From IMG/VR virus record IMGVR_UViG_3300032287_000839, positions 1 through 45,793 of that record: a DNA stretch of 45,793 bases; one strand, written 5' to 3'. Under the pieces are notes generated by a model, which ran no database searches, was not told the origin of the DNA, and saw nothing but the letters and a program-made list of their open reading frames with translations. Positions 32,527-44,578 of the stretch are shown piece by piece. Position numbers and translations under genes: made by a program. Numbering within the stretch: position 1 is the stretch's first letter; the number at the start of each line of letters is the position of its first letter. The stretch comes from a virus.

Positions 32527-33279
32527 ATGAATTATCCATTTATATCATGTAAATGTATAACTTACGGTAGAGTGTCCACGCTTGAGGAGAGTGTTGAATC
32601 TTTCCTCAAGCAGGATTACCCTGCAGATAAGTGTGAGCTCATAATAGTCAATGATTACCCATTACAGACTCTTATGTTCGATCATCCCCAAGTTAAGATA
32701 GTTAACCTATCCGAGACATTTAAAACTATAGGAGAGAAAGAAAACTATGCTACAGAATTATGTCAAGGAGATATAATATGTCAGTGGGATGATGATGATG
32801 TAGCCTTACCAAATCATTTGCAGAATGTAGTTAAATACATGACTGATAAAGTAAACATCATTCACTGGGAAGTAGGAGTGTTATGTCACATTACAGGAAT
32901 TGAACAAGTTGGTTGGATAGGTAACTCTGGTATTGTATTTAGAAAGTCAGCTTGGAAAGCTATAGGAGGACATCCTCTTGAAAATGCTGGATATGATATG
33001 ACATTCATTGAACGTATCAATGCACATGGAGGTAGACTATTTGCTAAACCTCCTAAAGAAGAAGCAAGCTGGTTCTATATGTGGGGCGGTAGAGGTTATC
33101 ACATGAGTGGTGAGGGTACTGACCATCCTGGAAAACTCAACGCTATACAAAGACACAGTGCTCATATTGAAAGAGAAAGAGCCATAGGAAATATACCTAC
33201 AGGAGATGTACATTTAGTACCCAACTGGAAAAATGATTATTCCGAAATGTTAAAAAATTTCATCAATAAAAATAAATAA
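32527..33279 (+). CDS. Glycosyltransferase family 2-like
   Basis: 250 residues with a GT-A fold: FISCKCITYGRVSTLEESVE at the N-terminus, the strand ELIIVNDYP, and the metal-binding CQWDDDDVALP at about 86-94. EQVGWIGNSGIVFRKSAWKA is the typical acceptor-loop segment. It transfers a sugar from a nucleotide-sugar donor. With the methyltransferase and the second glycosyltransferase downstream it makes a glycan-modification module. The target (virion protein, DNA or host surface) is unknown. Confidence 0.78.
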   Translation: MNYPFISCKCITYGRVSTLEESVESFLKQDYPADKCELIIVNDYPLQTLMFDHPQVKIVNLSETFKTIGEKENYATELCQGDIICQWDDDDVALPNHLQNVVKYMTDKVNIIHWEVGVLCHITGIEQVGWIGNSGIVFRKSAWKAIGGHPLENAGYDMTFIERINAHGGRLFAKPPKEEASWFYMWGGRGYHMSGEGTDHPGKLNAIQRHSAHIERERAIGNIPTGDVHLVPNWKNDYSEMLKNFINKNK

Positions 33280-33280
33280 T

Positions 33281-33838
33281 ATGTCTATTAAAGATACACT
33301 ATATGCCATGAGAAGTGGGCATTACAAAAACGGATTAGAAGATTTAATCAACTATGTGAATACGTTCTCTAATACTAAAGAGATGACAATCCTTGAGATT
33401 GGGTCTTATGCTGGAGAATCAACAGAAATGTTTGCTCAAAACTTTAAAAGTGTCATAGCAATTGATCCTTTTATGAATGATTATGATCCAAATGATCCTG
33501 CTTGTAGCTACATGGACTTAACAAATGTCTACAAAACTTTCAGTTCAGTGATATCTAAATACGATAACATAACTCATATTAGAAAAACATCTGATGATGC
33601 TATCAATGAACTTAAAGACACTAAGGTGGACTTAATTTACATTGATGGTTTACATACATACGACCAGGTTAAGAAAGACATTGATAACTATATAGGTTTA
33701 ATCAATGAGTCTGGATTCATTAGTGGTCATGATTATCATTCAGTTTGGCAAGGAGTTGTAGATGCTATACATGAGAAAATAGGTAAGCCTGATACAATAT
33801 TTCAAGACACTAGTTGGATTAAAAAATTAAACAGGTAG
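33281..33838 (+). CDS. Class I SAM-dependent methyltransferase
   Basis: 185 residues. Motif I is LEIGSYAGES at 38-47; VIAIDPF is the second strand with the acidic residue; VDLIYIDGLHTYDQVKKDID is the segment with the D that follows; and SGHDYHSVWQGVVDAIH is a typical Methyltransf_24-type metal-site pattern. Probably methylates a small molecule or a glycan. It lies between two glycosyltransferase genes, two bases or fewer from each, so a sugar is the most plausible substrate. Confidence 0.72.
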   Translation: MSIKDTLYAMRSGHYKNGLEDLINYVNTFSNTKEMTILEIGSYAGESTEMFAQNFKSVIAIDPFMNDYDPNDPACSYMDLTNVYKTFSSVISKYDNITHIRKTSDDAINELKDTKVDLIYIDGLHTYDQVKKDIDNYIGLINESGFISGHDYHSVWQGVVDAIHEKIGKPDTIFQDTSWIKKLNR

Positions 33839-33840
33839 TT

Positions 33841-34383
33841 ATGTTCTTAAATATAATAACAGCTTGCAGTCGTCCTGAGAACTTATTAACTATTTCAAAT
33901 AGTATAAATATACCTAAGGAAAACTATCGTTGGATAGTTGTATTTGATAGTGTTACATTACCTGATAGTAAACTAATACCTGATAACTGTGAGGTTCATA
34001 TGCATACAGACAAAAAAAGTATTGTTGGTAGTTCGCAAAGAAACTTTGCATTAGAACTAATCAGTGATGGGTATGTCTATTCTAATGATGATGACACTAT
34101 AATACATCCAGAGTTGTGGGAAAACATCAAAGATTTAGACAATGATTTCATATCATTCGATCAAGTGTGGACTAGTGGTACACATAGACTATACGGAAAC
34201 ACAATTAAATTAAGTTATGTAGATAATCATAATTTTATTGTACATAGATCATTAGTAGGTGATGAGCGATTTGTTGTAGATAGATATGATTCAGATGGTG
34301 TACTTGCTGAAAACTGTTACAACAGATGTAAAAATCCAAAATATATTCCTAAAGTGCTAAGCACTTACAACGCACTCAGATAA
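33841..34383 (+). CDS. Glycosyltransferase-like protein (GT-A fold)
   Basis: 180 residues, starting NIITACSRPENLLTI, with a second strand WIVVFDS and the metal-binding VYSNDDDTIIHP (DDD at 83-85). SSQRNFALEL precedes it, as in other short GT-A enzymes. It is about 180 residues, shorter than typical GT2 enzymes, and ends in a terminator. It follows the methyltransferase gene by two bases. Likely the last gene of the plus-strand region. Confidence 0.68.
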   Translation: MFLNIITACSRPENLLTISNSINIPKENYRWIVVFDSVTLPDSKLIPDNCEVHMHTDKKSIVGSSQRNFALELISDGYVYSNDDDTIIHPELWENIKDLDNDFISFDQVWTSGTHRLYGNTIKLSYVDNHNFIVHRSLVGDERFVVDRYDSDGVLAENCYNRCKNPKYIPKVLSTYNALR

Positions 34384-34388
34384 TAATA

Positions 34389-34416
34389 AAAAAGCCCCAT
34401 TAATTTGGGGCTTTTA
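34389..34416. terminator. Bidirectional terminator between convergent operons
   Basis: AAAAAGCCCC (34389-34398) pairs with GGGGCTTTT (34407-34415) around an eight-base loop. The T run after the plus strand and the A run before it (TTTTTTATT on the minus strand) let it stop transcripts from both sides. It lies between the glycosyltransferase stop and the minus-strand 57-residue gene. Confidence 0.85.
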
Positions 34417-34590
34417 TTATTTTGATAGTCTCTTTTGTTTAAGAGGCCACATTTTACTTTTCAACCTAAGTTTTGTATCAGCTTCCTTCATATAATTAGG
34501 ATTAGCTTTGCTAGGGGGAGCAACTTTAGGAGCCTTTTTAGGTGTTCCTGATTTCTTTGCTTTACCAGCAGTCATGTTATTTGCAGCCAT
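34417..34590 (-). CDS. 57-residue basic protein, last gene of the tag-protein run
   Basis: Found by hand translation from ATG 34590: MAANNMTAGKAKKSGTPKKA, then PKVAPPSKANPNYMKEADTK and a basic end. It is Lys- and Pro-rich like the neighbouring proteins but lacks the MATxKK...KKAQSG head. It overlaps the previous gene by 14 bases and ends at the bidirectional terminator. A packaged or DNA-binding role is inference. Confidence 0.6.
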   Translation of the reverse strand: MAANNMTAGKAKKSGTPKKAPKVAPPSKANPNYMKEADTKLRLKSKMWPLKQKRLSK

Positions 34591-35077
34591 ACTTACATTT
34601 TTTTACAGTTCCACCTTTTTTCATAGTAGGTTCCATAGAAGCAGCTAAACCACCATATTGCATTTTCTTCTTAGGGGTAACACCTGCTTTCTTCATTGAA
34701 ATTGCTATAGCAGCTTGTTTAGCAGCTTTACCACCCATCTTCATTTTGTGCACACCAGCACCATGTTTAGCAATTACACCACGACCTTTTAATATATCAG
34801 CCTTAGTGATTTTACCATCTTTGTTTAAGTCTGGAAAACTTTTAGCTTTTTTACCACCATTTTGCATTTTGGTTTTAGCAACTTTCTTAGGAGCATAATA
34901 TTTACCTGTACCAGCTGCTTTATCTAATGATTCGTTCACACCTTTTTCCCACTTGTCCATAACTTCTTTCTTATAAAGTTTATTAGTCATTTCACCACGG
35001 ACATATCCTTTAGGTGTAGCTTTAGATTTTTCAACACCACTTTGAGCTTTTTTTACCATTTTTTTAACAGTTGCCAT
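34577..35077 (-). CDS. Lysine-rich KKAQSG-family protein with an EF-hand-like loop
   Basis: 166 residues. Head MATVKKMVKKAQSG; MQNGGKK, KMKMGGK, MQYGG and MKKGGTVKK repeats further on; C-terminus CKYGCK. At residues 83-94 is DLNKDGKITKAD, a Ca2+-binding EF-hand loop of the DxNxDGxIxxxD type. The protein is very basic. It is part of a run of related small genes; a virion-internal role is inference from the strand and position. It overlaps the 57-residue gene by 14 bases. Confidence 0.7.
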   Translation of the reverse strand: MATVKKMVKKAQSGVEKSKATPKGYVRGEMTNKLYKKEVMDKWEKGVNESLDKAAGTGKYYAPKKVAKTKMQNGGKKAKSFPDLNKDGKITKADILKGRGVIAKHGAGVHKMKMGGKAAKQAAIAISMKKAGVTPKKKMQYGGLAASMEPTMKKGGTVKKCKYGCK

Positions 35078-35078
35078 T

Positions 35079-35882
35079 TTATTTCTTTTTAGAGGTTAAT
35101 TTAATTTTCTTTTCTTGCTTAAGCATAGCAGCTGTAGGTTTCTTTCCAGATCCTTTAGCAGCTCTAATGTTGTCCCATAAACCACGTTGGGAATAAGAAC
35201 CATCAGCACGTTTGATCATTTGCTTACCAGACTTTGCCTTAGCCACTTTACCACCTTTCTTAAGTTGTTTATCTGCTTTTGTTAACATATAACTTCTTTG
35301 TGTATTAAAATGTTTTTTCTCTCTGTCAGTTAGATCTTTTGATTTAACAGAATCAGCAGAACGTGTATTTGCTAAACTATCATTTATTTTCTTTGTTGCT
35401 TTTTCATCTTGATTAGTAGATTTATAAAATCTTAATCCATCATCAGTTTTAAATCTAGAAACTCTAGTCCAATCACCAGTTTGTCTATTTTTAGTAAGAT
35501 GCTCATCTCCTGTAAGAACAGCTCCTTTTCTTTCTTTTTCTGTTCTAACTACACGAAGTCCTGGTCTAGAATCTTTTGTTACTTCCTTACCACTTTGGGC
35601 TTTCTTAACAGCTTTTTTAACTGTCTTACCACCATTTCTTTGTTCTTCCATAACTTTCTTTTCTCTTGGAGTAAGTGTAGAATATCTAACAGAATCTGCA
35701 GAGTTTCTAGATGATAACATATCATTCATATCTCCAGTCATTTGCATATCCTTACTGGTTGATCTGTAATATCTATCTCCAGCGTCTGTTTTGTATTTAT
35801 TTAAACGACTATAGTTACCTTTACTATCTTTAGTAACATAACCACTCTGAGCTTTTTTTGTTGTTTTCTTTACGGTTGCCAT
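35079..35882 (-). CDS. Lysine-rich KKAQSG-family protein with internal duplication
   Basis: 267 residues. The head MATVKKTTKKAQSG recurs inside as TVKKAVKKAQSG and as VAKAKSGK. Two halves are homologous: SRLNKYKTDAGDRYYRSTSK / SRFKTDDGLRFYKSTNQ, then NSADSVRYSTLTPREKK / RSADSVKSKDLTDREKK. The C-terminal piece has RGLWDNIRAAKGSGKKPTAA, a short motif found, as I recall, in other Bacteroidota phage proteins. One base separates it from each neighbour on either side, so it belongs to the same operon. Confidence 0.7.
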   Translation of the reverse strand: MATVKKTTKKAQSGYVTKDSKGNYSRLNKYKTDAGDRYYRSTSKDMQMTGDMNDMLSSRNSADSVRYSTLTPREKKVMEEQRNGGKTVKKAVKKAQSGKEVTKDSRPGLRVVRTEKERKGAVLTGDEHLTKNRQTGDWTRVSRFKTDDGLRFYKSTNQDEKATKKINDSLANTRSADSVKSKDLTDREKKHFNTQRSYMLTKADKQLKKGGKVAKAKSGKQMIKRADGSYSQRGLWDNIRAAKGSGKKPTAAMLKQEKKIKLTSKKK

Positions 35883-35883
35883 A

Positions 35884-36195
35884 TTAACAATTCCATTTAC
35901 GAAGTGATTTATTAATTCTGCTATTAGGATCGTTAGCCGTTTTAGCAGATGTGAGTTTTTTCTTCATGCCTGACATTCTAGAACAGAAAGACTTACGTCT
36001 ACCTGCTGCTTTAGAACCAGCTTTAAGTTTGGAAGGTTTAGTAGTAACAGCAGTCTTCAGTTTAGAACCTGGGTTAGCTTTTCTATAAGAAGCTACACCT
36101 TTAGCATTTAAACCTCCCTCTGGATTTTTACCTTCTTTGCGAGTCCAAGCAGGTGTACTACCTCCAGACTTCATAACCTTTTTAACTGTTGCCAT
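35884..36195 (-). CDS. Lysine-rich protein, DUF6321-like
   Basis: 103 residues. After MATVKKVMKSGGS it reads PAWTRKEGKNPEGGLNAKG, then a basic middle and RRKSFCSRMSGM, ending LRKWNC. This combination matches small proteins that, to my recollection, are grouped as DUF6321 in phages and some bacteria. It has the MATVKK head but not KKAQSG. It shares its first base with the end of the following gene upstream. Function unknown. Confidence 0.68.
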   Translation of the reverse strand: MATVKKVMKSGGSTPAWTRKEGKNPEGGLNAKGVASYRKANPGSKLKTAVTTKPSKLKAGSKAAGRRKSFCSRMSGMKKKLTSAKTANDPNSRINKSLRKWNC

Positions 36196-36587
36196 TATTT
36201 CTTCTTTTTATTGTAATTAGGATTTTCTCTATGCCATTTTCTAACAGAAGCAACACCTTGTTTAACAGTTTTGGCTTTAGATTTCTTAGTGAGGTTAATC
36301 TTGTCCCACTTACCAGCAGGTATTCCTGCAGTGTGATCAACAACCACATCTCCTTTTTTATTCTTAAATACCTTGTGAGTTTGACCACCCACCTTAACAA
36401 CAGTACCACCACTCTTTAATGTACTTCCTGCATATGGACCTTTCTTTTTAATTAATGGACCATTAGGTACAGGAGTGATAGCTCCTTTAATAGGAGAAAG
36501 CGTATCCCCATTTTTAAGTACACGCTTACCTACATAAGCTTCTGCTTTCTGTGGATTATAAACTTTTGTTTTAGGTATTCTTGCCAT
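36195..36587 (-). CDS. Lysine-rich hypothetical protein
   Basis: 130 residues, beginning MARIPKTKVYNPQKAEAYVG, so with a different head. A beta-rich middle (GGTVVKVGGQTHKVFKNKKG) has the KSGGT motif of the group; the C-terminal KQGVASVRKWHRENPNYNKK is very basic. It is one base from the next gene and belongs to the run of tag-type genes. No known function. Confidence 0.65.
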   Translation of the reverse strand: MARIPKTKVYNPQKAEAYVGKRVLKNGDTLSPIKGAITPVPNGPLIKKKGPYAGSTLKSGGTVVKVGGQTHKVFKNKKGDVVVDHTAGIPAGKWDKINLTKKSKAKTVKQGVASVRKWHRENPNYNKKKK

Positions 36588-36588
36588 G

Positions 36589-36939
36589 TTATTTACCTTT
36601 TCTAGCTCTGCCCATTGCCTTAAATGTCTTAGCTAACGCTTTTCTCTTAGGAGTGCATGTAGCTTTAGTCATTGGTGTACAATAGCCTTTATGAGCTGGA
36701 TTAACAGCTTTCTGAATCCAATTTTTATCTTTAGCAGTCTTACCACCACTCTTTTGTTTAGGAGTAGATTTACTTGCTTTGATGCTATCTTTTATCTTTT
36801 GTTCTTTAGCCAAGTGCTCTTTAGCAATTTTTGCTGAGTCTTTGCTGAAGTTTTTAAAAGCTGCTCTAATATCAGCCTTGGTAGCACTGTCTGCTTTTAT
36901 ACCTGATTGAGCTTTCTTAACCTTTTTTATAGTTGCCAT
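36589..36939 (-). CDS. Lysine-rich KKAQSG-family protein with a small Cys/Pro module
   Basis: 116 residues. Head MATIKKVKKAQSG, a helical charged middle, KQKSGGKT, then the module NWIQKAVNPAHKGYCTPMTK followed by ATCTPKRKALAKTFKAM. This module occurs in proteins of large viruses and phages (DUF5872-like, to my recollection). The end ARKGK is basic. It is 3 bases from its upstream neighbour in the operon. Function unknown. Confidence 0.68.
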   Translation of the reverse strand: MATIKKVKKAQSGIKADSATKADIRAAFKNFSKDSAKIAKEHLAKEQKIKDSIKASKSTPKQKSGGKTAKDKNWIQKAVNPAHKGYCTPMTKATCTPKRKALAKTFKAMGRARKGK

Positions 36940-36942
36940 GTC

Positions 36943-37326
36943 TTAGTGTTTTTTAGACTTACCACCCATTCTCATTTTTGTAGCACCCAATTGCTTATCT
37001 TTTACTAAAGAAGCTTTACCCTTAGCACCAGCTAATGTTTTCTTTTGAACCTTAGTGTATGCACCTTTAGGATCTACAGGACCTACACGCTTGTTACTAG
37101 CTTTTAAACCAGATAAGCTACCACCATCTTTCATTTTGGTTTTAACCTTAGACTTTTGTTTTTTACTTGCTTCCATCATCGTAGGACTATATTTCAAATC
37201 AGCATAGTTACGAGCAGATTTATCAGAAGTAGATCCCATTTTGCGTTCAGCAAGTCTCTCAGCACTTTCTTTAATAACAGACTTGTAACCTGATTGAGCT
37301 TTTTTTGTTTTTTTAATTGTTGCCAT
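36943..37326 (-). CDS. Lysine-rich KKAQSG-family protein
   Basis: 127 residues. Head MATIKKTKKAQSG, a helical region with ESAERLAERKMG, KTKMKDGGSLSG, then a Gly/Lys-rich end with MRMGGKSKKH. The protein is basic throughout and looks disordered. It has the clearest spacing of the tag and GG motifs in the group. Function unknown. Confidence 0.68.
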   Translation of the reverse strand: MATIKKTKKAQSGYKSVIKESAERLAERKMGSTSDKSARNYADLKYSPTMMEASKKQKSKVKTKMKDGGSLSGLKASNKRVGPVDPKGAYTKVQKKTLAGAKGKASLVKDKQLGATKMRMGGKSKKH

Positions 37327-37344
37327 TTTAATATATTTATATTG

Positions 37345-37617
37345 TTATAAACTGTTATTGGAAGCTTCTTTCTCTACTTCTTTAACTTGACCAGCTTCAA
37401 CTGCTCTAGCTAAAGCACCTTGTACAGCATCATGAGCATCCACTGCTAATAAAATACGAGCTGCTTCTTGCGTAGAAATTGTAGAACGTAAAGCATTTAA
37501 TACTAATCCAAAATCTGCTCCACTTAATGTGAATGTGTCATTTGTATTCCAAGTGTATTGCTTTTGAGGATCAAATGTTGGTGTTTCGTTTGCTTGAAAG
37601 TCGATAATTTCTGCCAT
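37345..37617 (-). CDS. Hypothetical acidic protein with its own promoter
   Basis: 90 residues, unlike its basic neighbours: FQANETPTFDPQKQYTWNTN, then TFTLSGADFGLVLNALRSTI and a helical, acidic C-terminus. It begins 24 bases after a Bacteroidota-type -7 box, so it and the following tag genes probably form one unit. I believe similar proteins exist in related phages, without known function. Confidence 0.65.
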   Translation of the reverse strand: MAEIIDFQANETPTFDPQKQYTWNTNDTFTLSGADFGLVLNALRSTISTQEAARILLAVDAHDAVQGALARAVEAGQVKEVEKEASNNSL

Positions 37618-37678: not shown

Positions 37679-37960
37679 TTATAAGGTGATATCAAATACT
37701 ATAGTTGCTGAACTTTTAATACTTTTAGATAGATCCAGGTGGATCTGCAAGAGGTTATGAAACTTCAATAGCTCTTCTAGCAACATATCATTATACCGTG
37801 GTATAGAAGGTGCTAATCTAAAGTGATAAGAATTAGGATTCTTTGTAATTTCTAATGTAGACAATTCATCTACAGAAGATATAATTCCTTCCAGGTGAGC
37901 AAAATAAGCAAGTTCGTTATCTTGCATCACCTCAGGAAAAAACTTTTTATTTATTTGCAT
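37679..37960 (-). CDS. Hypothetical protein
   Basis: 93 residues, alpha-rich (AYFAHLEGIISSVDELSTLE) and beta C-terminus. No family recognised. It shares one base with the stop of the Dps-like gene (TAATG type), which indicates translation coupling. It ends shortly before the promoter of the next unit. Confidence 0.55.
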   Translation of the reverse strand: MQINKKFFPEVMQDNELAYFAHLEGIISSVDELSTLEITKNPNSYHFRLAPSIPRYNDMLLEELLKFHNLLQIHLDLSKSIKSSATIVFDITL

Positions 37961-38364
37961 TAAGACAACGTTAATAAGTATTTAGTTTTAGCTGCTTCTC
38001 CAGATAATGCATCTGCTAAGTTAGCTATGTCATGGAAGTTGTTTGTTTCAGCATAGCTTTTTAAGTTACTAGCAAAGTCCATAAGAGCTGTTACCACTGA
38101 GTTAGCATCTGCAGCACTTAATGCTTCTATTTTAAATACACCAGGACGTTTACCTGTATAACCCATAAGTTTCTCTACCACACCATCTTTGAAATCATGT
38201 ACATAATCGTACAATCCTCCAAGAGCTTGATGTTCTGCATAACTCTTTGTCTGCCAATGTAATAGATGTAATTGCTCATGAAAATAAGTAAGCTTTCCAG
38301 CTACTGTTTCTAAGTTTAGTTCTCCTGATTTCATCATTTCTTCAGGGAATAGTGATTTTGCCAT
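37960..38364 (-). CDS. Dps/ferritin-like protein (DUF5856 type)
   Basis: 134 residues, helical. The segment FHEQLHLLHWQTKSYAEHQA (28-47), then LYDYVHDFKDGVVEKLMG, has the Dps pattern of a histidine-rich first helix and a D/E-containing second helix (His29, His33, His36, Asp57, Asp60). It matches the phage DUF5856 group. Dps proteins store iron and bind DNA; whether the ferroxidase centre is complete is not sure. It lies in the late operon, so it may be packaged. Confidence 0.7.
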   Translation of the reverse strand: MAKSLFPEEMMKSGELNLETVAGKLTYFHEQLHLLHWQTKSYAEHQALGGLYDYVHDFKDGVVEKLMGYTGKRPGVFKIEALSAADANSVVTALMDFASNLKSYAETNNFHDIANLADALSGEAAKTKYLLTLS

Positions 38365-38385: not shown

Positions 38386-39648
38386 TTAACAAGGATTATT
38401 TATAACGTTCGTGAATCCAATTTGCCAGTAGGTTTCTCCACCACACTCAATACTTATGTTTGAGCTTCCACCAGGAACTGTTTTATATTCTACAGAGGTG
38501 GGATCGATAAAGTTTTTAGGTGTACCATCCCAAGCTTCAATATTCAATGCAGTAGCTAGACGATCTATTCTACATGCATATCCTACAGTGTTACCTCCTG
38601 CAAACACAAGTCCTATGATTTTCCAAGTTCCATTGAAGTCAGCAATTAATGCAGACCCAGAATCACCACCAGCAATAGGAAAGTTACAATTGGTACTGTA
38701 TCTAGTGAATCCTATTACATCACTGAATGGAACAAAGAAGAAAAGACTAGTCCAGTTTCCTTGATAGTGAAATCCTGATACATTTATATTTGATCCAACT
38801 GAAAATGTTCTTAATCTACAAGGACCAGGGCCTTTAACACCACTAGTTCTACCAGAGCTGTACAATTCAGGATCGGTTGTTAATAAATCATCAATCTCTT
38901 CTGTTGTAGCAAACTCCATTGGATCTTCGTAGTTTAATCCAAATTGTTTATATGATTCTTCAAAGTCTATCACCTCAGGATCTACAGAACATAAAGCAGC
39001 ATCTAAGTAATTGGGTCCAGACCTAAGCATTGGTACATATCTAATAACTCTACCAATTGATAAGTTTGCTGCAGAAGGTTGAATTTCTCCTGACTGGAAT
39101 GTAGGATCACACAACTCAGCTTCTAAACCCCCAGATATATTTTGATCACTTGTATAGAAAGCATTCTTTACCATTACGTGATTGTTACTAACACCAACTA
39201 ATGCTTGAGTAAAACTGTCTACAGCAATAAATCCTAATGTTCCTACATAGCCTTGAATAAGCCCTGATGCAATAGATACTCCTCCTTTTAGAGGTCTAAT
39301 TGTATTTCTATTAGCAGGAGGTGTGTTAGGATCTTGCCAACTATAACAGTTATTTAAAACTGATGTAGGACATGTAGCTGGAGGACATCCAGGACATGAT
39401 AATAGTTTAACTTCACCCACTTCAAATACATCTGTATTATAAACTGTTCCATCGATTTCTACAGTGCTAGGTAGCAATTGGTCTTCTGGAATCTGATCTA
39501 AAGGTAATTTCTGTTTAACATGAAATACAATAGCTTTCTCATCAGTGTGTTCTCCACCAACTATTTTGAATCCATAAGCCACACCAACATCTTCTGGTGT
39601 AGAGTCAAATAATTCTTTTATTTTATCATTTATAGCTTGCGTTAGCAT
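38386..39648 (-). CDS. Trypsin-like serine protease (Nal1-like) in the late operon
   Basis: 420 residues. An N-terminal domain VGVAYGFKIVGGEHTDEKAI and so on, then a Cys-rich turn (SCPGCPPATC) and a chymotrypsin-type protease: His157 in SNNHVM, Asp216 in NYLDAAL, Ser330 in GGDSGS. All three catalytic residues are in order. There is no signal peptide. The N-terminal domain is the one that I associate with plant Nal1 and bacterial relatives. It probably cleaves a virion protein, or host protein, at some step; the lysine-rich tag proteins downstream are one possible set of substrates. It is next to structural modular proteins. Confidence 0.8.
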   Translation of the reverse strand: MLTQAINDKIKELFDSTPEDVGVAYGFKIVGGEHTDEKAIVFHVKQKLPLDQIPEDQLLPSTVEIDGTVYNTDVFEVGEVKLLSCPGCPPATCPTSVLNNCYSWQDPNTPPANRNTIRPLKGGVSIASGLIQGYVGTLGFIAVDSFTQALVGVSNNHVMVKNAFYTSDQNISGGLEAELCDPTFQSGEIQPSAANLSIGRVIRYVPMLRSGPNYLDAALCSVDPEVIDFEESYKQFGLNYEDPMEFATTEEIDDLLTTDPELYSSGRTSGVKGPGPCRLRTFSVGSNINVSGFHYQGNWTSLFFFVPFSDVIGFTRYSTNCNFPIAGGDSGSALIADFNGTWKIIGLVFAGGNTVGYACRIDRLATALNIEAWDGTPKNFIDPTSVEYKTVPGGSSNISIECGGETYWQIGFTNVINNPC

Positions 39649-39659
39649 ATTTTTATTTT

Positions 39660-40208
39660 TTAATATACATCATATTTTACAAACACTGTGTTAGTTCCTG
39701 GTGCATCTCCAGGTATAATGTCATATTTTACAAAGACAGTATTGACTAAACTATCTGGATTAATTGTAGTTGTTGTACTTGTTGTACTGGTAGTACTTGT
39801 TGTTGTGCTACTAGTAGTAGAGGTTGTTGAGGTGGTTGATGTGGTTGAACTAGTAGTTGTACTAGTTGTGCTAGTAGTTGTACTACTGGAAGTGCTAGTC
39901 GTAGTGGTTGTTGTTACACCTTTATAAACAGCATCTATTTCTATCCACCCTGTTCCACTATTAGCATCTAAAGGTTCTCTTCTTTGAATCACAAGACTAC
40001 TAGGAACCACTCTACCAAACATGTCTAATCTAATAAAGGCCCTAAGGACATTTCCATTAGTGCCTGTTGTGTTAGAACCAAGAACATTAGACACAGCTAC
40101 CCAATTACCGTTTCTTGGTCTAACTGGGCTTATGATAGGACCCCCAGCAACAATTCTGCCCTGGGAGTCATATCTAACATAAGCTGTATTTCCGTTTCTT
40201 CCTAACAT
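39660..40208 (-). CDS. Modular virion-type protein with AYVRYD repeats and a Thr/Ser linker
   Basis: 182 residues. Two copies of a repeat of about 45 residues (TAYVRYDSQGRIVAG and RAFIRLDMFGRVVP, each followed by R-x-P and a G-x-W) make up the N-terminus; then residues 99-148 are almost only Thr and Ser; the end has two copies of NTVFVKYD. The same repeat starts the neighbouring protein. The low-complexity linker resembles mucin-like or fibre linkers. Tail or decoration protein is likely from position; no signal peptide. Confidence 0.68.
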   Translation of the reverse strand: MLGRNGNTAYVRYDSQGRIVAGGPIISPVRPRNGNWVAVSNVLGSNTTGTNGNVLRAFIRLDMFGRVVPSSLVIQRREPLDANSGTGWIEIDAVYKGVTTTTTTSTSSSTTTSTTSTTTSSTTSTTSTTSTTSSTTTSTTSTTSTTTTINPDSLVNTVFVKYDIIPGDAPGTNTVFVKYDVY

Positions 40209-40238
40209 TAATTAGATTTACTCTGTTTTATTTATTTA

Positions 40239-40688
40239 TTAGCAAGAGAGTAAAGATAGTACACCACCAGCATTAACTAAAAGTCTAGTCATACCTTGAG
40301 AAATTACATATCCTTCTGTTACAGGAACAGTTAATCCGATATTTGTGAAGATTGCAACTCCTGGTGCTAATGTTGGTGAAGCTGAATAGAACGTGATTTC
40401 CCCTTCTGTAGTGGTACTACATGCATCCTCTGCATTTGCCCAAAAATTTCTAGTAAATGTTCCTGAACCTGAGGTTGTAGTTGTTGATGTTGTGCTAGTT
40501 GATGTGCTTGTAGAACTAGTTGATGTAGTTGTTGTAGTTGGTGGAATGTATTCACAACATTCTGATATTGCAATTTCTTGCCATTTTCCTACTGTAGGTT
40601 TCTTTCTTCTAAAGATAAGACTACCTGCAACTACTCTGTTACTACCATCGTAGCGAACATAAGCTTTTAAGTTTTGATTGCTTCCCAT
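40239..40688 (-). CDS. Modular virion-type protein with one AYVRYD repeat and Thr/Ser linker
   Basis: 149 residues. One copy of the repeat (KAYVRYDGSNRVVAGSLIFR), then a Thr/Ser linker at 51-74, and a C-terminal beta domain with FYSASPTLAPGVAIFTNIGL and TRLLVNAGGVLSLLSC. A related C-terminal pattern (YTSPTL...) is found in the 218-residue protein at 42762. This and the next gene look like products of shuffling a head, a linker and a tip. Function in the virion is inferred. Confidence 0.66.
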   Translation of the reverse strand: MGSNQNLKAYVRYDGSNRVVAGSLIFRRKKPTVGKWQEIAISECCEYIPPTTTTTSTSSTSTSTSTTSTTTTSGSGTFTRNFWANAEDACSTTTEGEITFYSASPTLAPGVAIFTNIGLTVPVTEGYVISQGMTRLLVNAGGVLSLLSC

Positions 40689-40708
40689 AATTTTAATTTT
40701 TAATTAGG

Positions 40709-41728
40709 TTAATAGTTTAGGTTATATTTGTTTTTTAATTCGATCAATTTTGTTACATAGTAGTGTGTACCATGTTTCTTTGCATTCTCATCATTTAAGA
40801 CAACTTGCATGTGTGTATCTCTGAAAGGATCTTTACCTGTATGATAAGCTCCTTTATAGAAAGCTGGATAACTTCCCATATTTTGTTGAGTTATACCAGC
40901 ATTATGAAACAATCCAAGTCTTTCAACCTTCTCTATAGAATCTGATGCCCAAGAGAATTCCATTTCAGGAATGTTTTTAGTTTCAATATCTCTCAACCAA
41001 AGGTTCCATAACACAGCCCACATATCTGCACACCAGCTTTGAAATCCTTTATCTTCACTAGCAAAGAATTGCCCATTTATATGTTGAAGATATTTACGAA
41101 TGATGATACAATCATTCATCACCTTGTGCCAAAACTTAGCATCTACATTCTTTAAGAAGTATTGAGCTCCTCCAGAATGATCGTTGTTAGCTTCAGCTAT
41201 TTCTCTAGAGATACCTATTAAGCTTGTAAGCTCAGCAAGTACGTCTCTAGTTTTGTATTCTTCCAATTTATCAGCTTTTACCTGATGTATTTTACTATCA
41301 AAATATGTAGCATTTATGTAGCTGTTTGTATCAGAAAGATAACATATATCATCGTTGATATACTCATCCACATTAAATTTATCTGTAAATAGAATATCAC
41401 AGTCACAGTAGAACACTGCTTTAGCACTCATCTCAGGATGATCCTGGAAATATCTCATTAATACATATGGACGTAGAACAGGAATATAAGTTCCTAGATG
41501 TTGGCTAACATCTCCACCATCCTTGTAATAAGCAAATTGTGCTTCTGGATATAAATCTTCTATCTTTTGCCATTTGTCACTCTTCTCTCTGAAGCTAGGA
41601 GTGTACACAAGTACAATAGCTTTGTCTGAGTGACCAATTTCTTTTAAACTTTCTAACCATGCATGAACCTGCCAAGTATAGTAAGTATCATCTGGCTGAG
41701 CGGCTACAAATCTTAATTCTTTACTCAT
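40709..41728 (-). CDS. GT-A fold glycosyltransferase-like protein within the tail block
   Basis: 339 residues from ATG 41728 (MSKELRFVAAQPDD); the ATG at 41758 overlaps the homing endonuclease stop and adds an unrelated lead. VFYCDCDILF contains the DxD (about 109-111), and DHSGGAQYFLKNVDAKFWHK and the HNAGITQ segment resemble acceptor/donor motifs of GT8-like enzymes. It could decorate the Thr/Ser-rich proteins next to it; that is inference. Confidence 0.68.
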   Translation of the reverse strand: MSKELRFVAAQPDDTYYTWQVHAWLESLKEIGHSDKAIVLVYTPSFREKSDKWQKIEDLYPEAQFAYYKDGGDVSQHLGTYIPVLRPYVLMRYFQDHPEMSAKAVFYCDCDILFTDKFNVDEYINDDICYLSDTNSYINATYFDSKIHQVKADKLEEYKTRDVLAELTSLIGISREIAEANNDHSGGAQYFLKNVDAKFWHKVMNDCIIIRKYLQHINGQFFASEDKGFQSWCADMWAVLWNLWLRDIETKNIPEMEFSWASDSIEKVERLGLFHNAGITQQNMGSYPAFYKGAYHTGKDPFRDTHMQVVLNDENAKKHGTHYYVTKLIELKNKYNLNY

Positions 41729-41729
41729 A

Positions 41730-42323
41730 TTATATAGTTGTTGGTTTATATCTATCATCTCTTTTTAAAATAGGAGTGGTGTTAGATCTCCAACTTTTTC
41801 CATATATAATCTGCCTTATAATTGATAAACTAACACCTATAAGTTCAGAAACTTCTTTTGTGGTTTTTCCTGAGTTATATAATTCTTTAAGAATAGTAAC
41901 TTTTTCATCTGTAAGAGTAGCTCTACTATTTCCTTCACCTGCTCTACTAGGTTGTAATCCTAATTTATAAGCATGTAATTGATTTTCTGAATTAGTAACC
42001 CACTCAAGATTTACAACACTATTATCAGTTTTTATACCATTAATGTGATTTATTTGAGTATATCCTTCAGGCTTTATTAAGAAAGCACTAGATACAAGTT
42101 TGTGAACTAATCTAGTATGAGTTCCATTTTTACGAAGCCTAACTTCAGGATATCCCTTTTTATTAAGCATCTGTTTCATTTCTTGTCCTCTAGTCAATCT
42201 AAGCCCACTTCTACCTTGTTTAAGTCTATCTATTCCTCTAATTTTACCAAGACTACTTGCCTGATATCCATCAAAGTCAGGAATATTTCTCCATTCTTCA
42301 CAGATAAATTTTAAATCCTTCAT
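41730..42323 (-). CDS. NUMOD4-HNH homing endonuclease
   Basis: 197 residues. NUMOD4 motif EEWRNIPDFDGYQASSLGKI at about 9-28, then an HNH_3 core, KLVSSAFL and INHINGIKTDNSVVNLEWVT, and a helix-turn-helix (TTKEVSELIGVSLSIIRQII) at the C-terminus, the standard domain order. It stands between a structural-type gene and the glycosyltransferase gene and is probably a selfish insertion. Its first ATG is 28 bases before the 122-residue gene's stop. Confidence 0.88.
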   Translation of the reverse strand: MKDLKFICEEWRNIPDFDGYQASSLGKIRGIDRLKQGRSGLRLTRGQEMKQMLNKKGYPEVRLRKNGTHTRLVHKLVSSAFLIKPEGYTQINHINGIKTDNSVVNLEWVTNSENQLHAYKLGLQPSRAGEGNSRATLTDEKVTILKELYNSGKTTKEVSELIGVSLSIIRQIIYGKSWRSNTTPILKRDDRYKPTTI

Positions 42324-42351
42324 ATGTAGTTTTTGTTGGTTTGTTTTACTT

Positions 42352-42720
42352 TTATGGAGCTATAGTAGTAGTGGTGGTTGTTGTAGTATGAGAATCTATA
42401 CAAGGTTGACAATCACTAGGAGTGTCCCATACATATTCAATAGTTCCAACATCTTCAGGACCTGTTGCTGCATCTACAATAAACCAACATTCAGGAGTGG
42501 CATTATTAACAATAGTACCTTCTGCTAATGTACCAGCACCAGTGTATTTAATTACATGGTATTCCATTCTCTCACAACCAGCTACATTATAATAAGTTGC
42601 AGTCTGTGGAGCAATTACAACATTACCTGCCACTTGTGTTAATATTTCTAATTGTTTAGAGATTTGCCAAAGCAAATTAGCTTTTTGACTCCATCCTATT
42701 TGTCTACTTGGTATTGCCAT
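42352..42720 (-). CDS. Modular virion-type protein ending in a Thr tract
   Basis: 122 residues. The N-terminus MAIPSRQIGWSQKANLLWQI is shared with the 218-residue protein upstream (MAIPSRQIGWGTEENLLWQI), then KQLE.LT.V. A beta-rich middle follows (GCERMEYHVIKYTGAGTLAE). The last 13 residues are a run of eight Thr and IAP, and the protein stops there, as if the domain after a linker had been lost. Probably a virion protein or adaptor. Confidence 0.62.
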   Translation of the reverse strand: MAIPSRQIGWSQKANLLWQISKQLEILTQVAGNVVIAPQTATYYNVAGCERMEYHVIKYTGAGTLAEGTIVNNATPECWFIVDAATGPEDVGTIEYVWDTPSDCQPCIDSHTTTTTTTTIAP

Positions 42721-42761
42721 TTTATTTTTTACTTTAATATTTACTTAACCTTTTATTTATT

Positions 42762-43418
42762 CTAACAAGCTGTCTTGTTTGATAATTCACCAGGATTAAC
42801 AGCTCCAACTGTATAACTAAACCCACCATAAGAAAAATAAGTATTACTTGTAAATGGAGTGGCAAGTGTTGGTGAGGTGTACAATATCGTTCCGTTATCA
42901 AATGCTGTACCACAAGCAACAAAAGCATTAAATACAGAACTACCTGTACAAGCGTCTCCTTGAGATACGTCAGAAACTAGACCACCTCCAATGTAACTAA
43001 CGCTTTGGAAACCGAATATGCCATCAATTCCTGTAGCTCCGTAACTATATTTACCAGTTGTATTAAAATATGTTTGACCCAATTCTACTTCAATTGTTAA
43101 TGATGTATCCGTATATAATTGGGTTCCAATAGTTAATACAGAGTCTGCTGAGTAATAGTTACTAGGACTAACTGGTCCAGTTAGACAATTTGCAGTTTCT
43201 GTACTAGTAGAACCTAATGAGTAAGTATAATAACCAGGAAAAGTTGTTGTTGTACTTGTTGTGGTGCTTGTTGTAGAGCTAGTAGAGCTAGTGGTTGTGG
43301 TGGTTGTATTACCATTAATGTTGTATACAACCCTAGTAAGGTATTCTAATTGTTTAGATATCTGCCACAAAAGATTCTCTTCTGTTCCCCAGCCTATCTG
43401 TCTAGATGGAATTGCCAT
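42762..43418 (-). CDS. Modular virion-type protein with MAIPSRQIGW head
   Basis: 218 residues. Head 1-33 as in the 122-residue protein, Thr/Ser linker at about 38-59, then beta-rich domains with a repeated pattern (GTQLYTDTSLTIEVELGQTY, and GTILYTSPTLATPFTSNTYF) and Cys at the ends. The pattern YT-x(2)-L-T resembles beta-sheet repeats in phage tail or decoration proteins. The frame ends 38 bases before the next gene's start. Confidence 0.66.
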   Translation of the reverse strand: MAIPSRQIGWGTEENLLWQISKQLEYLTRVVYNINGNTTTTTTSSTSSTTSTTTSTTTTFPGYYTYSLGSTSTETANCLTGPVSPSNYYSADSVLTIGTQLYTDTSLTIEVELGQTYFNTTGKYSYGATGIDGIFGFQSVSYIGGGLVSDVSQGDACTGSSVFNAFVACGTAFDNGTILYTSPTLATPFTSNTYFSYGGFSYTVGAVNPGELSNKTAC

Positions 43419-43420
43419 GA

Positions 43421-44578
43421 TTAATATGTTTTATTTAGTATAAATATATCGCTGTATATGTTGTTTCCTGTAGATGCAGATCCCCATTCAACTGTTATGT
43501 CTAATGTATTAGAAACTGTTGTGTCAAATGTTGTGTTGTTCACTACATTAAATCCAAATCCTTGAACAGAAGCATTGTTAGTTTTTGTGTAATGAAAACT
43601 ACCTAATGATACAATAGATGCTACACCAGCACCTCCAATTTGTCTAATAGTGAAATCAACATTCAAAGACCATATATCATCTGTAACAGCACTTCCAAGG
43701 TTTTGTAAACCACTATCTAGAAGAAGAACAGCTCCTGTCCTCATTCTAATTCTTATAGTTTGATTATTTGTAGCGTTAATAACACCACCAAGAATTGCTC
43801 TAAAAGAATCACCAACACTAAAACCATTAGCAGGAACACTCAATGTACCCACTCCTGATCCAATAATTGTTGTTTCAGCTGTTGTATTTGTAACAATAGT
43901 ACTGTTGGCTGTTTGAGAATATAATCCATACACCACAGGTAAAGGAAGTACAGGAGAAGTTCCTGAAGAGCCACTGGTACCTGCTGTACCTGAAGTTCCA
44001 GCTACACCTTGTATGCCTTGCACTCCCTGAGGACCTTGCAATCCTGATGTTCCTGATGAGCCATTAGCTCCAGATGTACCAGAAGAACCATCTCCTCCAG
44101 CAGCACCTTCTAAGTTAACTGTCCAAGAAGAATATGTTCCACTTCCTATCACTGTAATAGGAGGACCAATAACTAATGCACCTGTACCAGCATTATAACT
44201 TACAACACTACACACTTGATGATTATTTACATCATAAGTGATGATTATATCTTGAGCTGGTGTATAAGCTAAACCAGTTTCAACAGTTAATGTTGTAGAT
44301 GTTCCTAATGTAAATTCTGTAGTTGATGTTGTTCTATATCTATCACCAGCAGCACCAGAACTACCAGATGTTCCAGCTGAACCAGCCACACCTTGAGTAC
44401 CTTGTGTACCTTGTACACCTTGAGGACCAGTTTGTCCCACTGCTCCATTGATACCAGAAGTACCAGAAGTACCTGATGTTCCAATATTGACAAAATCATC
44501 TAGATTTAACCAACCTTCGTACCCATCACATGGATTACAAATTTCTCTCCAGAATCCTGGTTTTATAAAAGTAGGCAT
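43421..44578 (-). CDS. Collagen-like tail fibre-type protein
   Basis: 385 residues. Cys-containing head (KPGFWREICNPCDGYEGW), collagen-type G-x-y repeats at about 33-79 (GTSGTSGTSGINGAVGQTGP and on) and about 164-210, separated by a beta domain of about 80 residues, then a C-terminal beta domain of about 170 residues. Collagen-like repeats form trimeric shafts in phage fibres. No receptor-binding motif can be read. It starts 17 bases after a probable promoter -7 box, and its stop is 2 bases from the next gene's ATG. Confidence 0.75.
   Translation of the reverse strand: MPTFIKPGFWREICNPCDGYEGWLNLDDFVNIGTSGTSGTSGINGAVGQTGPQGVQGTQGTQGVAGSAGTSGSSGAAGDRYRTTSTTEFTLGTSTTLTVETGLAYTPAQDIIITYDVNNHQVCSVVSYNAGTGALVIGPPITVIGSGTYSSWTVNLEGAAGGDGSSGTSGANGSSGTSGLQGPQGVQGIQGVAGTSGTAGTSGSSGTSPVLPLPVVYGLYSQTANSTIVTNTTAETTIIGSGVGTLSVPANGFSVGDSFRAILGGVINATNNQTIRIRMRTGAVLLLDSGLQNLGSAVTDDIWSLNVDFTIRQIGGAGVASIVSLGSFHYTKTNNASVQGFGFNVVNNTTFDTTVSNTLDITVEWGSASTGNNIYSDIFILNKTY

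Follow-up and report, generated by a model that had tools for sequence, protein, structure and literature searches.

A glycine motif delimits shuffled modules in small basic proteins and in two large proteins of the cargo gene slot in a crassvirus-like clade

A short glycine motif is conserved in a clade of crassvirus-like phages, where it is placed at the boundaries of shuffled protein modules and is shared between an array of small, very basic proteins and two large proteins that occupy, by position, a cargo slot. The reading we favour, at a probability of roughly 0.45, is that these proteins are basic cargo that is packed and injected and that the motif is a processing site; the virion location, the cleavage and the enzyme are predicted parts of it. 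The window, i.e. the whole stretch of 45,793 nucleotides analysed here, lies within a 109,793-bp virus record.

Judged by its genes, the record belongs with Crassvirales: the capsid protein matched PF23898 Crass_capsid (E 1.6e-26), the portal phrog_6547 (3e-104), TerL phrog_6681 (5e-76) and the muzzle-like virion structural protein phrog_37948 (1e-104), and among the large RNA polymerase (RNAP)-related proteins the 3808-aa family matched crAss001 gp50/gp47 and the 1642-aa family matched gp49. The clade appears to be uncultured, since the closest isolate by capsid protein, Leptolyngbya phage Lbo-JY46, is 26% identical, and all members described here are predictions made on metagenomic contigs. 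No cultured relatives carrying the tag array described below were found, and the array is absent from crAss001 and phi14:2. A 484-aa cargo-block protein of Lbo-JY46 (77867-79321; L108:27867-29321) starts with the tag-like MKIRIIGLPKAQIG, the sole tag-like N-terminus seen there; this phage is a cultured cyanophage, so the protein is a possible experimental entry point.

Seven consecutive minus-strand ORFs were verified within 34417-37326, in agreement with the preliminary description of a run of lysine-rich genes (Lys 18-25%, net charge +14 to +40). They form the last part of a minus-strand block that ends at a hairpin common to the opposing plus-strand genes. The features of this region are as follows.

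34390..34415, strand not assigned: terminator-like hairpin, bidirectional, separating the array from the plus-strand genes.
34417..34590, minus strand: 57-aa untagged basic protein, the last member of the array, kept in 7/7 genomes compared.
34577..35077, minus strand: 166-aa protein; tag MATVKKMVKKAQSG, PKGYVRGEM module, KMQNGG junction, EF-hand/dockerin-like loop DLNKDGKITKADIL; additional KMKMGG, KMQYGG and MKKGG sites.
35079..35882, minus strand: 267-aa three-module mosaic; KKAQSG and module X, KKAQSG and a repeat of X, then KKGG/KAKSG and a GLWDNIR module.
35884..36195, minus strand: 103-aa protein; MATVKKVMKSGG, then DUF6321 (PF19846).
36195..36587, minus strand: 130-aa basic protein with no N-terminal tag; NPQKAxAYVG...GPLIKKKGP module, STLKSGG end.
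36589..36939, minus strand: 116-aa basic protein; tag MATIKKVKKAQSG, KQKSGG junction, then a conserved GYCTPMTKATCTPKRKALAKTF module.
36943..37326, minus strand: 127-aa basic protein; tag MATIKKTKKAQSG, then a module, KMKDGG junction, GLKASNKRVGP module, KMRMGGK at the end.
37345..37617, minus strand: 90-aa acidic protein just upstream of the array, of no known family, kept in 7/7 genomes.
37960..38364, minus strand: Dps/ferritin-like DUF5856 protein, related to crAss001 gp7 DpsA, kept in 7/7 genomes.
38386..39648, minus strand: chymotrypsin-like serine protease candidate (NAL1_N, phrog_20754).

The hairpin by itself carries little weight, since three terminator-like sites were counted in the region versus 2.5 expected in shuffles. 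The DUF5856 protein may bind DNA or iron, as a virion or an early protein. Three successive plus-strand ORFs at 32527-34383, two glycosyltransferase-like and one methyltransferase-like by eye only, end at the hairpin facing the array. Several late ORFs at 39660-43418 with long Thr/Ser repeats (TTTTTSTSST...) and a collagen-like GTSGTSG ORF at 43421-44578 resemble surface or fibre proteins. No match to defence-system families was obtained.

KKAQSG is N-terminal in the ORFs ending at 34577, 35079, 36589 and 36943, the four MATxKK starts recognised earlier, and the fifth gene (35884) does carry MATVKK without it. Four N-terminal KAQxG among seven proteins were not reached in any of 20,000 within-protein shuffles (maximum 1); the 36195 and 34417 ORFs lack it. 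A fifth KKAQSG copy is internal to the 35079 ORF, a tandem of two related halves (43% identity, E 2e-17) that each start with KKAQSG and are followed by the GLWDNIR module. At the DNA level the KKAQSG pattern gave five matches and its reversed control none. The GG motifs ascribed to most of these genes also exceed chance, with nine [ML]xxGG in the seven proteins and 0.6 expected from shuffling.

The bodies behind the tags had been described as EF-hand, DUF6321-like and DUF5872-like. DUF6321 in the 35884 ORF is firm (Pfam E 3.6e-20; 72.8 bits versus a curated cut-off of 28.5) and was matched in 20/20 relatives; the EF-hand-like loop stayed below the cut-off (Pfam E 0.015-0.11), and DUF5872 was found by Pfam in none of the seven array proteins. 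The DUF6321 protein was modelled by AlphaFold at pLDDT 72.5, and its fold had no PDB match by sequence or by structure.

IMG/VR was searched with two array proteins, which yielded 91 loci with 2117 distinct ORFs. Among these ORFs [KR]x?AQxG occurred 177 times, 117 of them within the first 30 residues, and the reversed pattern 5 times. An exact-codon pattern of the N-terminal tag matched 61 IMG/VR stretches (KKQA permuted control, 0) and gave one match in 84,980 prokaryote species genomes, which was taken as chance because ordinary bacterial genes and no tagged ORF surrounded it. The same capsid protein was present in 21/21 large records tested, 94-97% identical among full-length matches. When 16 records were picked by capsid protein and not by tag, the tag was present in 13 (control matches, 0), including all nine records of at least 100 kb, which also all carried DUF6321. 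The tag is thus conserved past this run, and the pattern of one tag on unrelated bodies holds well beyond the window.

Seven genomes were compared at the level of the array, in a nearly complete reading. In each, a single array made up of some six to eight small basic ORFs stands at the same late position, and the arrays differ strongly while the capsid protein hardly changes. The N-terminal tag of the relatives has the general form K-[A/Y/M]-[Q/K/E]-x-G(-G), with KAQxG, KYQxGG, KMQAGG and KAEDG interchanging among related proteins. No recognised N-terminal motif was present in 260 of 642 array-like ORFs, stand-alone DUF6321 included, indicating that the motif is not an obligatory packaging signal for each protein. 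Adjoining the capsid gene of the source record, a conserved 322-aa protein (100446-101414; L009:2446-3414) has QTMQGGLAQKGM near its N-terminus, and its family keeps AQKG or SQKG.

A wider motif, [A/M/L]-[Q/K]-x-G-[G/x]-x-hydrophobic, is sited at module boundaries, and the tag is a variant of it. N-terminal tags, [I/V]-K-K-A-Q-x-G-[K/A/T]-[K/S/T]-[V/L/I], and internal GG sites, K-[M/L]-K-[N/S]-G-G-K-[V/M/I/L], share the same register on both sides, with a hydrophobic residue at equal distance. A mere glycine-containing linker or shuffling scar without recognition would account for a motif that sits between modules, yet it is an unlikely explanation, given that Met is enriched 7.7-fold and Leu 3.1-fold at position -3, that the downstream hydrophobic residue keeps a fixed place, that the motif also stands on short leaders with nothing to join, and that the residues stay while the codons vary freely. 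Codon choice for A, Q and G in the tags does not depart from the background, indicating selection on the protein and not on the DNA; a DNA recombination site was ruled out on the same ground.

Module starts coincide with the motif or with the start codon. Among 75 DUF6321 occurrences, 30 were at the gene start and 32 had the motif within 3 aa (62/75 by this strict rule), and most of the other 13 lay within 8 aa of the Met or 4-5 aa behind a motif. The EF-hand-like module was directly behind the motif in 50/50 cases and the GLKASN module at the gene start or directly behind the motif in 13/15; random positions satisfied the module-start rule at 0.08-0.19. DUF6321 begins MATPAW... when it stands alone and ...LKNGG/KTPAW... 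or ...KMRSGG/STPAW... (slash, module start) when it is fused, and in relatives DUF6321 is fused immediately after the module of the 36195 ORF, behind NGG. What follows the PKGYVRGEM module varies: the EF-hand-like module in the source genome (G000), GLKA(S/G)xKRVGP in G011, GLWDNIR in G006, the junction being KM[QK]xGG in all three combinations. The small array proteins are mosaics of interchangeable modules, with the motif or the start codon marking module starts.

Two large proteins lie behind the muzzle gene of the source record, between it and the RNA-polymerase-related genes.

77896-81240 of the record: 1114-aa protein, in the cargo slot by position.
81259-85452 of the record: 1397-aa protein, in the cargo slot by position.

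Members of the two families carry about 5-13 motif copies each, at module edges. Motif enrichment reached z 13 and 11 in the array, z 5 and 9 in the 1114-aa family and z 3.3 in the 1397-aa protein, and the muzzle family was near background. Of the alignment ends in the large families, 45% lay no more than 5 aa from a motif, compared with 6.5% of random positions; the alignments are not independent of each other. Between motifs, the segments act as modules that can be exchanged. The genes that follow the muzzle gene in crAss001 specify cargo that mass spectrometry detected in virions (PMC10172136). Position and the homology of neighbouring genes, as opposed to their own, suggest that the 1397- and 1114-aa proteins are ejection cargo: like crAss001 C1 (gp45) and C2 (gp46) they occupy that gene slot, whereas an HMM search detected no homology to gp45/gp46, the strong motif repetition and module shuffling set them apart, and crAss001 has no tagged small-protein array. 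A tblastn search of the phage collection gave no isolate homologues for either large protein, nor for the 36195 ORF.

The preliminary description had taken the tag for an N-terminal sorting signal; recurrence in the large cargo-block proteins fits sorting, and the restriction to N-termini did not hold, the tag being one form of a module-boundary motif. The main rival to a processing site, which we regard as doubtful, is a docking signal that binds a prohead component and recruits the cargo uncut. The T4 capsid targeting sequence functions likewise, tags on short N-terminal leaders cannot be linkers, and a candidate partner is encoded beside the capsid gene, namely an acidic scaffold-like protein (103525-104802 of the record, net charge -37); however, stand-alone modules are often without the motif, and docking has no need for exact placement at module edges. 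A processing site fits best because the signal can take the place of the start codon, shows residue specificity to either side and stands on very short leaders.

It is improbable that the array proteins act in the infected cell and not in the virion, e.g. as late nucleoid-binding or translation-affecting factors. Small, highly basic products of late-strand genes would suit such a role, but the motif is common to the array and the large proteins of the cargo slot, and DUF6321 homologues of other phages, sometimes annotated as structural, are encoded shortly after the capsid gene in pelagiphage HTVC103P and, in cyanophages, mostly next to terminase genes. Just downstream of the HTVC103P capsid gene, gp75 (a basic peptide of 42 aa containing PMKYGGK) and gp74 (a DUF6321 protein) lie together at L176:5882-6300, a pair that suggests a similar small-protein set in unrelated podoviruses. 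The cyanophage and pelagiphage proteins (T4-GC 119; HTVC103P gp74) share with the array the domain, the basic character and the head or packaging neighbourhood; in contrast, those examined have no KAQxG tag, and the cyanophage ones are fused to other domains. A T4-type capsid targeting sequence was clear in one cyanophage DUF6321 protein (MKTFEQFTE, L177) and was not generalised, as the others differ. No literature on DUF6321, the motif or the array was found in open-licence PMC.

As for the enzyme, the serine protease at 38.4 kb, proposed earlier to cut the tags, is a neighbouring gene with a protease family match; it was present in only 1/31 related records, a comparison of the collected loci likewise gave one relative with it (L077, 61%), and the tag persists without it, so that it is not a general processor, the expected co-occurrence with the tag fails, and this assignment is contradicted for the clade as a whole and is very improbable. 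The 1397-aa protein (L011:2259-6452) contains a zincin-like HEVAH module at residues 256-535, between AQDG and AQNG motifs. HExxH modules of this kind occur in 2/8 large-family members (HEVAH here, HEMSH in L168), and a universal processor was rejected on this count; the model of the module was too poor to use (pLDDT 47.9). The HEVFH/HEVFE of the giant RNAP-related protein was also set aside, being variable and unclear in the source genome. No protease common to all genomes was recognised.

The internal proteins of T4 are a diverse set with the capsid targeting sequence alone as common feature, and their lysines contact packaged DNA (PMC3012670). Like IPI, IPII and IPIII, the diverse small basic proteins of the array share just a short N-terminal signal. 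The T4 signal is MKTYQEF..E-like and is cut after E by gp21; unlike it, the K-K-A-Q-x-G tag has no Glu position and offers no gp21-type site, and the motif recurs inside proteins and in the giant cargo-slot proteins. No gp21-like gene was recognised here. Functionally the array resembles the T4 internal proteins, but the cleavage site that defines them is missing, and we do not place the array in that family. Adenain-type sites, (M/I/L)xGG/x, are cut after GG and have their hydrophobic residue at the fourth position ahead of the cut, whereas Met/Leu in the array, as in M-K-N-G-G, precedes the first G by three residues and is one position more distant than in that consensus. Double-glycine leaders of C39 peptidases are of the LSxxELxxIxGG type, in contrast to the MATxKK(x)nKAQxG leaders of the array. 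Phage polyvalent proteins are large injected multidomain proteins with shuffled domains and zincin-like metallopeptidases, for which self-processing in the head or after injection has been proposed (Iyer 2017; PMC5512222). The large proteins here are likewise multidomain with shuffled modules, one with HEVAH, but their boundary motif is shared with a separate small-protein array and the zincin-like module is not universal.

In the processing scheme, the array would supply small, very basic cargo for an uncultured aquatic crassvirus, packed in its head along with the DNA and injected together with it. Head assembly would be the stage at which the motif, K-[A/M/L/Y]-[Q/K]-x-G-(G)-x-hydrophobic, is cut, at the glycine or immediately behind it, and its N-terminal form, MATxKKAQxG, would be a short removable leader. 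The small proteins and the two large cargo-slot proteins would follow one assembly and maturation route, since the same motif divides both. Taken further, and tentatively, a widespread aquatic crassvirus clade may possess a combinatorial cargo system in which the motif, interchangeable with the start codon, delimits the shuffled modules of a hypervariable array and two giant proteins and is cut by a head protease.

Crassviruses are extremely abundant. The array and the giant proteins suggest that they package, and perhaps cut, head cargo in a manner not described before. A motif at the module boundaries of small and giant cargo candidates predicts exact virion N-termini, is a possible bait for the processing enzyme or a docking partner, and names small basic modules (DUF6321, GLWDNIR and others) as candidate injected, DNA-associated proteins. 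If this is confirmed, foreign proteins could be loaded into phage heads with the motif as their tag, a use to which the T4 signal has already been put.
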